64,000 nt of DNA, from NCBI RefSeq assembly GCF_011492945.1, contig NZ_CP045119.1:868001-932000 (forward strand), read 5' to 3'. Of the stretch, positions 92 through 40,550 are shown piece by piece. Every line of letters begins with the position of its first letter. The stretch's first letter is position 1. Both the position numbers and the translations under genes were made by a program. Below the pieces are notes generated by a model. It was not told where the DNA came from. It ran no database searches and worked only from the letters and a program-made list of their open reading frames with translations. The DNA is from Rubrobacter tropicus. Its GTDB lineage: Bacteria > Actinomycetota > Rubrobacteria > Rubrobacterales > Rubrobacteraceae.

Positions 92-219
92 AGGCTGTCA
101 GCTTTCAGCCATCAGCTTTCAGCAAGGACAAAAAAGCTGACCGCTGAAAGCGTAGGCGAAGCCGGAGCGGGCCGATAGCTGACCGCGCGGATTGCGGTGG
201 CATTGAGCCACCGCAATCC
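92..219 (+). repeat. Intergenic heptad-word repeat, long form, copy A1
   Basis: TCAGC occurs at 98, 105, 112 and 119, exactly every 7 bp. An A-rich spacer follows, then GCTGA at 136 and 143, and GCCGA/GCTGA at 171 and 178. The element ends in a perfect 13-bp hairpin (arms 189-201 and 207-219, loop ATTGA) just past the stop of the NlpC-like gene. Three more copies lie in the window in the same orientation. The hairpin could serve as a terminator for the minus-strand gene, but no T-run follows. Confidence 0.75.
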
Positions 220-4766: not shown

Positions 4767-5582
4767 ATGCCCGAGCTACCCGAGACCACCGTGATCTCCC
4801 AGGACGTCGCCGCGCTCGCCGCCGGGCGCGAGGTGCTGCGGGCCGCGGTCTTCCGGCCCGACGTGACCAACGTGGAGATGGAGGAGTTCCCGCGCAGGCT
4901 CGTCGGGCGCCAGCTGTTCGGGACCGGCAGGCGGGGCAAGATCATAGTCCTCGACTTCGGCGACGTCGTCGGCATAATCCACCTCGTCATCTCGGGCCGC
5001 GTCCTCCGCCTCCCCGAGTGGCGGGAACCCGATAGGATGAACACGGCCGTCCTCGAATTCGAGGGAGGCCCGGTCCTCGCCTTCACCCGCCTCTGGCTCG
5101 GCTACTTCGACCTCTACGAGCCGGGCGAAGAAGAGAACCACCCCCTGATCTCGCGCCTCGGCCCCGACCCGTTCTCAGAAGACTTCACCGTCGAATACCT
5201 GACGAAGGCCTTCGAGAGAAAAGCGAACATAAAAGGTCTCCTCCTCGACCAGTCCGTGATCGCCGGCCTGGGCAACATCTACGTGGACGAGGTTCTCTTC
5301 GCCGCCGGCGTCCACCCGACCCGGAGGGCAAACACCCTGACTGCCGAAGAGACCCAAAAAGTCCACGCCGCCACCCGCGACATCCTCCGCCGCGCCATAG
5401 ACCTCCGCGGCACCACCTTCGACTCCTACCACGACGCCTTCGGCGAGACGGGCAAATACCAGCACCAACTCCAGGTCTTTACACGGGCCGGCGAGCCTTG
5501 TCCGCGGTGCGGCACCACCGTCGGCAAGAGCCGCGTCGCGGGTAGAGGGACGTATGCGTGCCCGACCTGCCAGCCCGTGTAG
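4767..5582 (+). CDS. Formamidopyrimidine-DNA glycosylase family protein (MutM/Nei)
   Basis: 271 residues. It starts MPELPE, where processing exposes P2 as the Schiff-base nucleophile and E3 is the catalytic acid. K58 in GRRGKI is the conserved DNA-binding lysine. The helix-two-turn-helix is LDQSVIAGLGNIYVDEVLF near 155-175. A C-terminal zinc finger has C245, C248, C265 and C268, with R260 in GRGTYAC as the finger arginine. Family enzymes excise oxidised bases and nick the abasic site in base-excision repair. Whether this is a true 8-oxoG enzyme or another Fpg/Nei branch is open: the usual HLGMSGRL segment reads HLVISGRVL. Coupled to the HAD gene upstream. Confidence 0.9.
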   Translation: MPELPETTVISQDVAALAAGREVLRAAVFRPDVTNVEMEEFPRRLVGRQLFGTGRRGKIIVLDFGDVVGIIHLVISGRVLRLPEWREPDRMNTAVLEFEGGPVLAFTRLWLGYFDLYEPGEEENHPLISRLGPDPFSEDFTVEYLTKAFERKANIKGLLLDQSVIAGLGNIYVDEVLFAAGVHPTRRANTLTAEETQKVHAATRDILRRAIDLRGTTFDSYHDAFGETGKYQHQLQVFTRAGEPCPRCGTTVGKSRVAGRGTYACPTCQPV

Positions 5583-5880
5583 CACGCTCCGGCTTCGCCT
5601 CCGCTTTCAGCCCGGCGCCTGCAGCGCCTTTCAGCACGCTCCGGCTTCGCCTCCGGTCGCTCTCAGCACGCCGCCTGACGGCGGCTTTCGGCTTCTTTAG
5701 TGGGGGGCGTGGTCCGCAGCGTCGGACGTAACCCCTCGAAACGGCGCGGCTGGAACTAGCCATTGCGGGCGGGCGCCGGTTCGCCCCAAGAGGTACCTGC
5801 TGAAAGCCACCGAAGGAGGCGTGCTGAAAGCTTAGGCGAAGCCGGAGCGTGCTGAAAGGCGCGAAGCCCGAGCGCGCTAG
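5583..5880. repeat. Intergenic TCAGC/GCTGA word element (B1)
   Basis: About 295 bp without a gene. The left arm has three TCAGC words, each followed by GC-rich mini-hairpin sequence such as CCGGCTTCGCC. A central unique part follows, then three GCTGA words on the right with the matching AGGCGAAGCCGGAGCG. The arms can pair into one large interrupted hairpin. It ends at the stop codon of the lipoprotein gene. Confidence 0.65.
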
Positions 5881-6443
5881 CTGGTCGCTTCTATGAGATC
5901 CGGGTTCTCGTCGGCGAGGGTTCTGGCTTCTTCGTATGCCTGCTCGGCCCTCTCGTAATCGTTGCCCACCTGTTCTAGGAGGTCGAGGGCTTCCTGGCGG
6001 TTGTTTTCGAGGGCCGGGTCTTCCTGGAGCAGGGTGTAGAACTCTATCTCGCGGTCTTCGGCGGAGATCTGGGCCTCCATGGCGTCCGAGAGGGTGCTCG
6101 CGTAGCGCTTTACGGCCGGGTCGACGTCGAGGTCGTTCACTTCGCTTAGGGAGGCGTTCGCCTCTTGAAGCCTTGAGCGGGCCTCTTCCATGGCGTCCCT
6201 GGCTTCCGTTATGCGGTCTTGCTGGGCTGAGGGGTCGTTGCCGGCTTCGATCTCGCTCTTCACGTCCGCGTAGGTGTCGCGGGCCTCGCCGAAGGACCTG
6301 TTGTGCTCGGAGATCGCCGCGTTCGCTTCGACGATGGCCTGGTCGGCCTGCTCGCCGGGGCTCTCGCCGAAGAGGCCGGAGCAGCCGGCGAAAAGGAAAG
6401 CGGAGAGCAAGATCACAACGAACAGCGCCTGACGGTTTATCAT
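5877..6443 (-). CDS. Helical lipoprotein of unknown function
   Basis: 188 residues. A Sec lipoprotein signal is clear: MINRQALFVVILLSAFLFAGC with lipobox LFAGC, so the protein should sit on the outer face of the membrane. The remainder is rich in Ala, Glu, Asp and Arg, strongly helical and coiled-coil-like, with no Trp and no catalytic motif. An alternative ATG three codons upstream (6452) would share the bases CATG with the start of the divergent gene; neither start has a clear ribosome-binding site. A role as an extracytoplasmic adaptor is only a guess. Confidence 0.75.
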   Translation of the reverse strand: MINRQALFVVILLSAFLFAGCSGLFGESPGEQADQAIVEANAAISEHNRSFGEARDTYADVKSEIEAGNDPSAQQDRITEARDAMEEARSRLQEANASLSEVNDLDVDPAVKRYASTLSDAMEAQISAEDREIEFYTLLQEDPALENNRQEALDLLEQVGNDYERAEQAYEEARTLADENPDLIEATS

Positions 6444-6450
6444 GTAGGGC

Positions 6451-6873
6451 ATGAGCGAGGGAAGTCTACCGCCTTTCGGTATATCAAGGCCAGGGTCTTT
6501 TCCGGGTCTGGTCAAGCGCGCGCTCGGCCGCTTCTTCGGGAAGCCCCGCCACGCGGAGATCCCGGCGTCCGACCCGGCGCTGGGCACGCGGGCGGCTTCC
6601 GTCGTGCGCCGTCACGCCGACGAACGCGCCACGCTTCTGGAGCGGGCGGAGAGGCTCCTTGGGAAAGCTCTCCGGCTCGAGGAGGCCGGGACGCCCAGCG
6701 AGAGCGCCGGCAACCGCGCCGAGCGGGCGTGGAGAGAGGTCGAGGAAGGCCTCGCCGCGTTGCGCGCCTCTTTTGTCGCGTCCGAGGGCGCCGAGGGCGC
6801 CGAGGCCTTCGACCGGGAGCTTGGCAGGAGGTACCCGGCGCTCGGGCTCAAGATGCACGGCCTGAACGCCTGA
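6451..6873 (+). CDS. Hypothetical protein, helical
   Basis: 140 residues from the ATG at 6451. No family recognised. The N-terminus is Pro/Gly-rich and basic; residues 45-125 are probably helical (RRHADERATLLERAERLLGK, WREVEEGLAALRAS). No membrane segment and no cysteine. Start-to-start distance to the divergent lipoprotein gene is only about 7 bp, leaving no room for two separate promoters, so the true start may be further in. Codon usage is like that of its neighbours, which supports coding, but the call rests on the open frame alone. Confidence 0.5.
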   Translation: MSEGSLPPFGISRPGSFPGLVKRALGRFFGKPRHAEIPASDPALGTRAASVVRRHADERATLLERAERLLGKALRLEEAGTPSESAGNRAERAWREVEEGLAALRASFVASEGAEGAEAFDRELGRRYPALGLKMHGLNA

Positions 6874-13756: not shown

Positions 13757-13955
13757 TGTCAGCCGGTCAGCGCGCTTTGGGCCTGCGGCCCTCGCTTTCA
13801 GCTTGTCAGCTTTCTTCCGCTCGCGGCCAAATCTGGCAGCGCTGTCCGAGACGATCCATGTAAAGTTGGGCGTCACGGGTTCAGAAAACCGGCTGACGAG
13901 CTGAGAGCCGCGAAGCGGCGTGCTGACGGGCTGAAATGTTGCCGCCGCTGGGGGA
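13757..13955. repeat. Intergenic TCAGC/GCTGA word element (B2)
   Basis: Four TCAGC words on the left, the mini-hairpin GGGCCTGCGGCCC among them, and four GCTGA words on the right (from about 13889), so the arms are balanced. From 13956 to the binding-protein gene I see no gene. Confidence 0.65.
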
Positions 13956-17875: not shown

Positions 17876-17889
17876 CCGAAGGCTACCTT
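17869..17889 (+). terminator. Hairpin overlapping the permease stop codon
   Basis: AAGGTAGCC (17869-17877), loop GAA, GGCTACCTT (17881-17889): 9-bp perfect stem containing the TAG stop. No T-run follows, so it may be a weak terminator or a 3'-end stabiliser. Confidence 0.45.
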
Positions 17890-18027
17890 CAGCTCGCCCG
17901 CAGCGCGGGCTCTCAGCACGCTTAGGCTTCGCCTCCGCTTTCAGCACGCTTAGGGTCTGCTTCGCAGCCCCTCGCTCTCAGCCTGTCAGCCAAGAAAGGT
18001 AGGCGACAGCCGGAGCGTGCTGACGGC
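17888..18027. repeat. Intergenic TCAGC/GCTGA word element (B3, unbalanced)
   Basis: Five TCAGC words on the left with GGCTTCGCC-type mini-hairpins, but only one GCTGA on the right (about 18018). It looks like a right-truncated copy of the class. Confidence 0.6.
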
Positions 18028-18771: not shown

Positions 18772-19030
18772 TCAGCACGCTCCCTGCAGTCTCTTTCAGC
18801 ACGCATCGGACCTTCGGTCCTCGCTCTCAGCCCGTCAGCTTTTTGCCACGCGGGGCGCTACCGGGCTGCGCCATGCGCGGCGGTTCGGGTGTCGAGATAC
18901 GCGGCGAGTCCGGACGACTTGGCTGAAAGCTTCCGAAGGAGGCGTGATGAGAGCGAGGCCCGCGGAGCGGGCCGACGCGTGCTGACGAGGCGCGAAGCGC
19001 CGGGCTGACAAGCTGGCGAAGCCAGCGTGC
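18772..19030. repeat. Intergenic TCAGC/GCTGA word element (B4)
   Basis: Four TCAGC words on the left with the mini-hairpin GGACCTTCGGTCC, a central unique part, then three GCTGA words plus degenerate ones (GATGA, GCTGC) on the right. It runs directly into the hairpin at the 3' end of the methyltransferase gene. Confidence 0.65.
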
Positions 19031-19055
19031 TGCTAGCGCGGTTTCCGCGCTAGCA
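19031..19055 (-). terminator. Perfect 11-bp hairpin at the methyltransferase 3' end
   Basis: TGCTAGCGCGG (19031-19041), TTT, CCGCGCTAGCA (19045-19055). The hairpin encodes the last residues LARKPR and the stop codon of the minus-strand methyltransferase gene. No T-run follows on the minus strand. Confidence 0.5.
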
Positions 19056-35608: not shown

Positions 35609-36397
35609 GTGGATCTCGGCCTGGCAGGAAAGACGGCCCTTGTAACGGCTGCGAGCAAAGGGCTCGGGAGGGCGATAGCGACCGAGCTCGCCCGGGAAGG
35701 CGCCCGCGTCGTGATCTCCAGCCGCGACGAGGCGACGCTCGCCCGGACGGCGGAGGAGATCGGGGGCGAGACCGGGGCCGAGGTCGGATACCGGGCCGCG
35801 GATCTCACGAAGGGCTCGGACATCGAGGCCCTGGTGGCGCACGCCGTGGACCGCTTCGGCGGCATCGACATCCTCGTCAACAACACGGGCGGCCCGCCGA
35901 CGGGCTTCTTCGCGGACCTGGACGACGAGGCGTGGGATTTGGCGTTCCGTCAGATCATACTGAGCCTCGTACGCTGCGTGCGGGGTGTGCTCCCCTCCAT
36001 GCGCGAACGCGGCGGGGGCCGCATCGTCAACGTCGCCTCCTCCTCCGTAAAACAGCCCATAGACAACCTCCTCCTCTCCAACACGTTCCGCGCCGGCTTG
36101 AACGGTCTCGCCAAGAGCCTCTCCCTGGAGCTCGCCCCGGACGGCATCCTGGTCAACACTTTGGGCCCCGGCCGCATCCTCACCGGACGGACCGAATCCG
36201 TGGACGCCGGGCAGGCCGAGGCGCAGGGCGTCTCCGTCGGGGAGGTCCGCGAGCAGTTCGCCGCCCGGATACCGCTCGGGCGCTACGGGACGCCGGAGGA
36301 GTTCGCCCGCGTCGCCGCCTTTTTGGCGTCGCCGGCCAACGGCTACGTGACGGGGCAGGCCATCCTGGTCGACGGCGGGATGGTCAGGGCGCTCTAG
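35609..36397 (+). CDS. SDR family oxidoreductase lacking YxxxK
   Basis: 262 residues from GTG 35609, with AAGGAGGT just upstream. The Rossmann glycine motif is TAASKGLGRAI; NNTGGPP replaces NNAG. The catalytic region reads NVASSSVKQPIDNLLLSN, followed by TFRAGLNGLAKSL: at the YxxxK position there is SNTFR, so the usual catalytic Tyr and Lys are missing. This is known for one branch of FabG-like SDRs. C-terminal GYVTGQAILVDGG is typical. The substrate is unknown. It follows a FAH remnant, which hints at a former catabolic operon. Confidence 0.88.
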   Translation: MDLGLAGKTALVTAASKGLGRAIATELAREGARVVISSRDEATLARTAEEIGGETGAEVGYRAADLTKGSDIEALVAHAVDRFGGIDILVNNTGGPPTGFFADLDDEAWDLAFRQIILSLVRCVRGVLPSMRERGGGRIVNVASSSVKQPIDNLLLSNTFRAGLNGLAKSLSLELAPDGILVNTLGPGRILTGRTESVDAGQAEAQGVSVGEVREQFAARIPLGRYGTPEEFARVAAFLASPANGYVTGQAILVDGGMVRAL

Positions 36398-36405
36398 AGC
36401 GGTTT

Positions 36406-36540
36406 GCAAAGAGGTCGACCTCTTTGCGAAGCTGTCAGCCTTTAGCCATCGGCTTTCAGCCAAGAACAAAAAAGCTGAAAGCCGACAGCGGAGGCGAAGC
36501 CGGAGCGGGCCGATAGCCGACGGCGCGGGTCGCCGGCCCG
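36406..36540 (+). repeat. Intergenic heptad-word repeat, long form, copy A2
   Basis: It opens with the perfect palindrome GCAAAGAGGTC/GACCTCTTTGC (36406-36427). TCAGC, TTAGC, TCGGC and TCAGC follow at 36435, 36442, 36449 and 36456, exactly every 7 bp. After the A-rich spacer come GCTGA and GCCGA at 36474 and 36481, then GCCGA at 36509 and 36516. The degenerate words keep the period. Confidence 0.75.
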
Positions 36541-36635: not shown

Positions 36636-37097
36636 ATGAGCGAGCAGCGCAGGAACCCGTTTCGGGGTTTTCTCGACATGGCGAGCGAGATGAACCGGAT
36701 GCGCTACATCGGCTCCTACGGCCAGGATTCCGGCCAGGAGGACCGCGAGAGGACCCACGCCACGGCCTGGGTCCCGACGGCCGACGTGTTCGCGCGGGGA
36801 AGGGACCTCGTGATCCGGATGGAGCTCGCGGGCGTCGCCCCGCAGGACATCGACGTCTCGTTTCACGAGAATACCCTGACGGTGTCCGGAGAGCGGGGCA
36901 GGGACGTCGACGAGGTGAGCTTCTACGTCCACGAGCGCTTCTACGGCGTCTTCCGCCGAAGCATGACCCTGCCTGCCGGCGTAGACGAGGACGACATAAC
37001 CGCCGAGTTCGACAACGGCCTCGTCGAGATCACCGTTAAAGGCGGCGCCGTCTCGTCGGAACCCCGTCGAATAGAGGTACGCAACAGGGCAGGCTAG
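36636..37097 (+). CDS. Hsp20/alpha-crystallin family small heat-shock protein
   Basis: 153 residues from ATG 36636, with AGGAGGAGAG directly upstream. The N-terminal 45 residues (RNPFRGFLDMASEMNRMRYI) are the variable arm. The alpha-crystallin domain runs from WVPTADVFARGRDLVIRMEL to the IxI-like end, with GVAPQDIDVSFHENTLTVSG and FRRSMTLPAGVDEDDITAEF as typical strands. It binds unfolding proteins in the cytoplasm without ATP. A palindrome with a possible -10 box precedes it, so a repressor may control it. Confidence 0.93.
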   Translation: MSEQRRNPFRGFLDMASEMNRMRYIGSYGQDSGQEDRERTHATAWVPTADVFARGRDLVIRMELAGVAPQDIDVSFHENTLTVSGERGRDVDEVSFYVHERFYGVFRRSMTLPAGVDEDDITAEFDNGLVEITVKGGAVSSEPRRIEVRNRAG

Positions 37098-37395
37098 TCA
37101 GCCCGGCGCTTCGCGCCTTTCAGCACGCTGCAGCCTTCGGCTTCCGCTCTCAGCACGCCTCCCTGCGGGAGGCTTTCAGCCTGTCAGCCAGTCGTCTGGG
37201 GACGTTACGCTTCGCGACGTCCGAACGGCAGCGCAAAGCGCGGCCCGGTCACGCCTCTGACGGCAAAAGCTGACGGGCTGAAAGCGAGGCCCGCGGAGGC
37301 GAAGCCGGAGCAGTCCGAAGCGTGCTGAAAGTGGAGCCCGTAGGGCGGAACGTGCTGAGAGCGGAGCCCGACAGGGCGTAGCGGGCTGATGAGCG
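37098..37395. repeat. Intergenic TCAGC/GCTGA word element (B5, best balanced)
   Basis: Five TCAGC words on the left and five GCTGA words on the right. Mini-hairpins GGCGCTTCGCGCC and CCTCCCTGCGGGAGG sit between left words. The centre (37195-37265) is unique. From 37396 to the BCCT gene at 37619 I see no gene, only an AT-rich patch near 37525-37555 that could hold its promoter. Confidence 0.7.
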
Positions 37396-40278: not shown

Positions 40279-40387
40279 AGGCCAAGCAACGGCACCAACT
40301 TTTCGTGCCCGCCGGAACGTGTGGGACGCGTGGCGGGACCGGGCCGCAGGGAGGTCAGGGGGCGGCCGTCGATTTTCGAAGCCTAAA

Positions 40388-40550
40388 GCGATTTGCAGAG
40401 AGAGTGAGACTGTTTGCAAGGCTATCAGCGATCAGCTTTCAGCCAGGGACAAAAAGGCTGATAGCTGAGAGCGCAGGCCTGTGAAGCAGGCCGGAGCGGG
40501 CTGATGGCTGACGGCGCGGTTTTCGGGAGCGACGAGCTTCCGAAAACCGC
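40388..40550 (+). repeat. Intergenic heptad-word repeat, long form, copy A3
   Basis: TCAGC at 40425, 40432 and 40439, GCTGA at 40457 and 40464, then GCTGA at 40500 and 40507, each pair or triplet on a 7-bp period. It ends in GCGGTTTTCGGGAGC/GCTTCCGAAAACCGC (40516-40530 and 40536-40550), a 15-bp hairpin with one mismatch next to the VOC gene stop, which may serve that gene as terminator. Confidence 0.75.

Follow-up and report, generated by a model that had tools for sequence, protein, structure and literature searches.

The 23S rRNA IVS of Coxiella burnetii, located inside the 23S rRNA gene, carries a variable number of tandem heptamers ahead of its S23p gene, has inverted termini and has long been considered possibly mobile (PMC4990558). 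The ends of an IVS pair into a stem, and RNase III excises it. Tandem heptamer repeats have also been described from the spacers of other bacteria, i.e. TAACTGA in Beggiatoaceae (PMC4679880), and GGGAATC in Xanthomonas and GGGGATT in Nostoc (PMC4692102), in all cases without a stated cause; some form inverted pairs, and their presence varies between relatives. A term search of these two papers revealed no mention of S23, and in the open-access journal literature searched we found no paper that joins S23 to heptamer arms or deals with Rubrobacter repeats. Two further groups of small dispersed sequences are relevant here. REP/BIME/REPIN elements consist of short palindromes that frequently form inverted pairs; they occur in many intergenic copies, carry a GTAG or CGTC tag (defined in PMC3733652) and are associated with RAYT transposases. 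MITEs are small, non-coding and dispersed, with inverted ends, and are able to supply stop codons.

The locus described here lies in a 64,000-nucleotide stretch of the Rubrobacter tropicus genome (hereafter the window; C1:868001-932000 of a 4.58-Mb genome in two contigs). The BCCT transporter gene of the window has its best protein matches in Rubrobacteraceae. The spacers of the window contain elements with a common layout, in which an arm of TCAGC words on the left and an arm of GCTGA words on the right are separated by a short loop or by a core that measures about 60-130 nt. In the A style the words follow each other back to back with a spacing of 7 nt, and the centre is either a core of that size or a short A-rich loop (e.g. 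CAAGAACAAAAAA). In the B style the near-centre words are 8 nt apart, units of about 22-35 nt (TTTCAGC-ACGC-mini-hairpin-GC) are found further out, and the core is about 80 nt long. The elements of the window are listed in Table 1.

Table 1. Word-armed elements of the window and parts of the element at 37098 (window coordinates; word counts are given as left/right)
Feature	Position	Strand	Remarks
B element, 5/5 words	37098..37395	.	Between Hsp20-like gene (stop codon ends at 37097) and BCCT transporter gene
Left arm of 37098 element	37098..37188	+	TCAGC words at 37098, 37120, 37150, 37176, 37184
Left-arm mini-hairpins of 37098 element	37105-37117; 37130-37147; 37157-37173		GGCGCTTCGCGCC; GCAGCCTTCGGCTTCCGC; GCCTCCCTGCGGGAGGC
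Core of 37098 element, about 80 nt	37189..37268	+	B core family member; AGTCGTCTGG..GTTACGC..GCGACGTCCGAACGG..
Right arm of 37098 element	37269..37391	+	GCTGA words at 37269, 37277, 37324, 37354, 37385
B element, 3/3 words	5580..5879	.	Fills convergent spacer between mutM/fpg and gene at 5877-6587
B element, 4/4 words	13757..13940	.	3′ of endonuclease V gene; absent from orthologous spacers compared
B element, 5/1 words	17880..18026	.	3′ of oligopeptide/dipeptide permease gene; absent from orthologous spacers compared
B element, 4/3 words	18772..19032	.	Between sortase gene and convergent methyltransferase-like gene
A-form element	98..190	.	Heptamer words, short A-rich loop
A-form element (long form)	36395..36535	.	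Upstream of Hsp20-like gene; outer TAGAGCGGTTTGCAAAGAGG hairpin
A-form element (long form)	40384..40530	.	
A-form element (long form)	61935..62090	.	

An exact scan for left (L) and right (R) words gave the order LLLLLRRRRR over 37098-37389, LLLRRR over 5607-5855, LLLLRRRR over 13759-13934, LLLLLR over 17889-18023, where the right arm is almost missing, and LLLLRRR over 18772-19008. The word counts of an earlier preliminary description of these five B copies (3/3, 4/4, 5/1, 4/3 and 5/5) were thereby reproduced exactly, and the mini-hairpins that it had placed between the words were found at their positions (GGCGCTTCGCGCC in the 37098 copy, GGACCTTCGGTCC in the 18772 copy and GGGCCTGCGGCCC in the 13757 copy). 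Its statement that the B form shares vocabulary with the long form also proved correct, AGGCGAAGCCGGAGCG being common to both (families D2/D6). In the element at 5580-5879 both stop codons (the mutM/fpg TAG at 5580-5582 and that of the other gene at 5877-5879) are inside the terminal words. The 18772 copy carries a B-family core in reverse orientation and has an 80% identical counterpart at C1:308444-308712. The A-form element at 36395-36535 is absent from both orthologous spacers found. The three long A-form elements have extra outer hairpins, starting with TAGAGCGGTTTGCAAAGAGG and ending in a sequence like ..GAAAACCGCTCTA; these hairpins may mark where this form really terminates. The elements produced no match to an Rfam family above the gathering score, and a search for rRNA matches in the window was negative.

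Word statistics were obtained from 800 kb of the R. tropicus genome, in which genes had been called with a simple codon-usage script. This segment contains 87 clusters with at least four intergenic TCAGC/GCTGA words, which extrapolates to roughly 500 elements genome-wide. At least four words within 300 nt were present in 85 of 448 spacers, compared with 3.0 expected from dinucleotide shuffles, and at least six words in 59 spacers (0.4 expected); the window alone has seven such spacers out of 34 (six or more words; 0.0 expected). The left word precedes the right word in 896 of 959 word pairs. The unit-length word TCAGCACGCTTCGGCTTCGCCTCCG, with up to three mismatches allowed, occurs 122 times in the genome, compared with no occurrences of the reversed control. 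The cores of B elements belong to one sequence family. Fifteen elements, among them those at 18772 and 37098 of the window, make up the largest similarity group, and about 13 of these align well by eye. A cores are mostly unalignable. The idea of the core as a universal module for all elements was consequently rejected, as it holds for the B family only.

The elements fold strongly, as had been anticipated: comparison with shuffled sequences gave z < -2 for 70 of 79 elements (median z -3.95), and the 37098 copy reaches -179 kcal/mol (z -7.1). In the minimum-energy folds, 66% of left-word bases are paired with the right arm. The suggestion that the balance of the arms reflects selection for pairing over their whole length was not borne out. 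Across the 79 two-armed elements the numbers of left and right words are uncorrelated (r = -0.13; mean difference 1.46 versus 1.47 after shuffling), although the selection of clusters with at least four words biases this test toward negative correlation. The variable dinucleotides of facing words, a comparison unaffected by this bias, agree at chance level, with values of 0.153 when counted from the centre (0.162 +/- 0.024 shuffled) and 0.192 from the outside (0.165 +/- 0.024 shuffled), and the 17888 copy, with its 5/1 words, is plainly lopsided. Since both measures stand at shuffle level, word-by-word selection for pairing was rejected; matched arms are not kept up word by word. Pairing of whole arms is nevertheless possible, because any word pairs with any opposite word.

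The clusters are found preferentially at gene ends. Forty-two are located in convergent, 39 in tandem and 6 in divergent spacers (n = 87), compared with 48, 150 and 80, respectively, of the background spacers of at least 150 nt (convergent versus divergent, p = 1e-9). Among 123 element ends facing a gene 3′ end, 79 are no more than 30 nt from the stop codon (median 7 nt among those), and this codon is TAG in 57 of the 79, versus 368 of 744 genes (p = 2e-5). Targeting of gene 3′ ends is thus seen as a bias, with about half of the elements between converging genes and many no further than about 10 nt from a stop codon; the terminal arm word often supplies the TAG stop. Such a strong 3′ bias, combined with strong folding, might indicate functional 3′-end structures under selection, which would terminate transcription in both directions, stabilise mRNA or be cut by RNase III. 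Plain terminator-like hairpins seen by eye in some centres (969514, 965877 and 718063), and another one in relative G006 at the 37098 site, also favour this explanation. However, the elements are absent from orthologous gene ends of close relatives, near-identical copies are found at unrelated genes and facing words do not change in a matched manner, so we consider it unlikely, even though some element sites may have a secondary 3′-end role.

Near-identical full-length copies were identified at unrelated loci of the R. tropicus genome (95% identity over 237 nt, 86% over 296 nt and 80% over 279 nt). The elements are mostly missing from the orthologous spacers of eight genus relatives, available as draft assemblies (G001-G008). 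The element at 704373 is missing in G002, G004, G006 and G008, and G002, G003, G007 and G008 have about 7-42 nt where R. tropicus has the element at 886772 (18772 of the window). The element at 905098 (37098 of the window) is missing in G006, which has the terminator-like hairpin in its place. Those at 988120 (core included; G004 and G006) and 960214 (G006) are missing as well. The lack of the words at most sites compared is the very observation that the preliminary description had set against its own reading. At several sites the adjoining gene fails to align with the relatives over its final 19-42 nt, which gives the impression that the element has taken the place of the gene end. No target-site duplication was readable at the empty sites, where changed gene ends blur the junctions. 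These sites represent presence/absence between species, which may also have been caused by losses. Taken together, the comparisons point to a dispersed and probably mobile element, with a bias to gene 3′ ends.

A different kind of variation was observed at C1:989659-989804. The arms consist of TCAGC/GCTGA words in R. tropicus and G002, of AGGTTTTAGG/CCTAAAACC in G004 and G006, and of a similar but weaker version of the latter in G005. The vocabulary at this site thus differs by species (TCAGC/GCTGA versus AGGTTTT/CCTAAAA) and both arms have switched jointly; an 8-nt TCAGC style is in use in G007. The proposal that the two arms change together is therefore supported in part: both carry the other vocabulary at this site, but their word counts do not vary together across the 79 elements. 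The comparison with relatives also revealed, in a convergent spacer at C1:700534-700816, a non-coding stretch of about 280 nt whose identity in G002, G005 and G006 (95-97%) greatly exceeds that of the genes on either side. It ends in a terminator-like hairpin, has no Rfam match and looks like an undescribed conserved RNA.

The claim that the elements grow by word units was confirmed by seven left words at 672487, which form near-identical tandem units, and by 30 consecutive left heptamers at 762712. The latter array (C1:762712-762943), located in a convergent spacer, is made up of alternating TATCAGC and GGTCAGC and faces two right words only. Tandem expansions of this kind, the heterogeneous A cores and the differently worded arms of sister species at 989659 might be explained by palindromes that do not move but arise and expand where they lie, at gene ends, through replication slippage and template switching, without any transposition. 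This is improbable in view of the near-identical full-length copies, core included, at distant unrelated loci, and of orthologous spacers from which whole elements with their core are missing (988120 and 960214).

Inverted ends, dispersed copies and orthologous empty sites are all features of MITEs. An ordinary MITE, i.e. an internally deleted derivative of an IS with a DDE transposase, to which S23 is unrelated, would account for them, and the transposase search of the R. tropicus genome covered the Y1 family. The ends of the present elements are, however, variable word arrays and not a fixed terminal repeat, no target duplication was read at the empty sites, and S23 genes occur within the same kind of arms (see below), which makes this origin rather unlikely. 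Mobilisation as REP/REPIN elements by a RAYT (Y1) transposase would agree with the short palindromic units, the inverted pairs, the location at gene 3′ ends and the resemblance to REP clusters. Yet the TCAGC/GCTGA word is not a GTAG or CGTC tag, and the Y1_Tnp model (PF01797), which found matches in five control genomes, had none in R. tropicus; we regard this possibility as very remote.

The orthologous sites provided a link to a protein-coding gene. At the site corresponding to 709846, the word arms of G001 enclose an open reading frame belonging to PF05635 (Pfam). A genus-wide search identified four genes of this family, two in R. tropicus and one each in G001 and G008, and all four S23/TIGR02436 genes are located between word arms. 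The arm-enclosed proteins scored 121.8 and 112.9 bits with TIGR02436 (cut-off 24; “four helix bundle protein”, NCBI model) and 113.2 bits with PF05635 (cut-off 33.8). One R. tropicus copy is intact (C1:734275-734583) and the other has an internal stop. The latter (C1:61508-61828) is flanked by TTTCAGG/CCTGTAA words, outside of which lies GCTGAATGCTGACGGCTGACA, belonging to the vocabulary of the window. The G008 element has exact B arms, which include the mini-hairpin GCCGTCTGGCGAAGCCAGACGGC and surround an intact S23 gene, and a single spacer holds an S23 element in G001 and G008 and an S23-less B element in R. tropicus. The window contains no S23 gene, and the single intact copy of this genome stands against hundreds of S23-less elements. 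The nearest solved structure to the S23 protein is Xanthomonas XCC0516 (2gsc). The Avd model of diversity-generating retroelements (NF033474) gave a weak match (E 6e-4), in line with the kinship stated for PF05635 and Avd (PMC10053308). No reverse transcriptase (RVT) was found in the genus, and the element is therefore not a diversity-generating retroelement.

The association within Rubrobacter comprises four genes, and the test in other phyla is independent of them. Outside the genus, S23 genes are flanked by arms built of other words (GGTGACG, AAGGTGC, ACAATTA, TTTTGAA, ACGATTT, GTTAGCT and more); three Desulfobacterota-phylum loci (L249, L255 and L264) have TCAGC/GCTGA words, as in the window. 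When lags of 3-15 were compared near S23 genes, lags 7 and 14 alone stood out. Of 29 Desulfobacterota-phylum S23 loci, 72% reached a lag-7 match of 22/36 or more and 45% had inverted 12-mers on the two sides of the S23 gene; the corresponding figures for random places were 3.8% and 2.7%. Inspection by eye of six S23 genes on cyanobacterial plasmids showed arrays of 7-base (or near-7) words at each of them. In five cases (Calothrix, Pseudanabaena, two Nostoc and Geminocystis) the gene clearly has inverted arrays on either side, whereas the Anabaena sp. 90 gene has an array on one side only. On the Pseudanabaena and Anabaena plasmids (L278 and L281) the S23 gene and its word arrays are situated between cas6 and cas4 of a CRISPR-Cas operon, which is of type I-D in Anabaena. 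S23/“four helix bundle” genes were present in 87 of the 148 Desulfobacterota-phylum genomes searched, with up to 15 copies. To our knowledge, no function has been assigned to them.

The present elements resemble the 23S rRNA IVS in having an S23 gene, inverted ends and tandem heptamers. They differ from it in their location between protein genes, in arms composed of word arrays and in the lack of an S23 gene in most copies. The heptamer repeats of Beggiatoaceae, Xanthomonas and Nostoc are similar in their tandem 7-nt spacer words, but the Rubrobacter words are accompanied by mini-hairpins and a core.

We propose, with a probability of about 60%, that the B elements of the window are S23-less copies (derivatives) of a selfish, mobile-type element encoding S23. 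Its parent form would be represented by elements with an intact S23/IVP gene (TIGR02436, PF05635) between their arms, as the association of gene and arms suggests. In this model the arms would pair into a branched hairpin, in single-stranded DNA or RNA, and S23, a four-helix bundle and distant relative of Avd, would bind the folded word arrays and assist host replication, recombination or another enzyme in placing new copies of the element at other gene ends. The arrays would then change through slippage and through exchange among copies, resulting in a vocabulary that drifts from species to species and is the same in both arms of an element. Copies at 3′ ends would survive because a hairpin is tolerated there. 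We know of no catalytic domain in S23, and the searches revealed neither a Y1/RAYT transposase in the genome nor a reverse transcriptase in the genus; S23 may also be a passenger in the element.

Because S23 genes of distant bacteria are likewise located between inverted word arrays of about 7 bases, these word-armed elements may constitute an overlooked class of bacterial selfish element. A wider generalisation seems to us possible rather than probable. According to it, S23/IVP proteins define widespread selfish elements without a transposase, whose ends are inverted, lineage-specific arrays of words of about 7 bases. The element itself would supply the machinery that recognises (or writes) the words, and a change of vocabulary would therefore affect both arms, and every copy in the genome, at once. 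Copies lacking S23 would multiply to hundreds, as in R. tropicus.

If S23 and the heptamer repeats are parts of one element, there would be a candidate cause for long-unexplained repeats and a protein on which to test it, and the kinship of S23 and Avd would hint at the origin of retroelement accessory proteins. In Rubrobacter-like genomes, such an element would account for hundreds of palindromic spacers and for altered gene 3′ ends.
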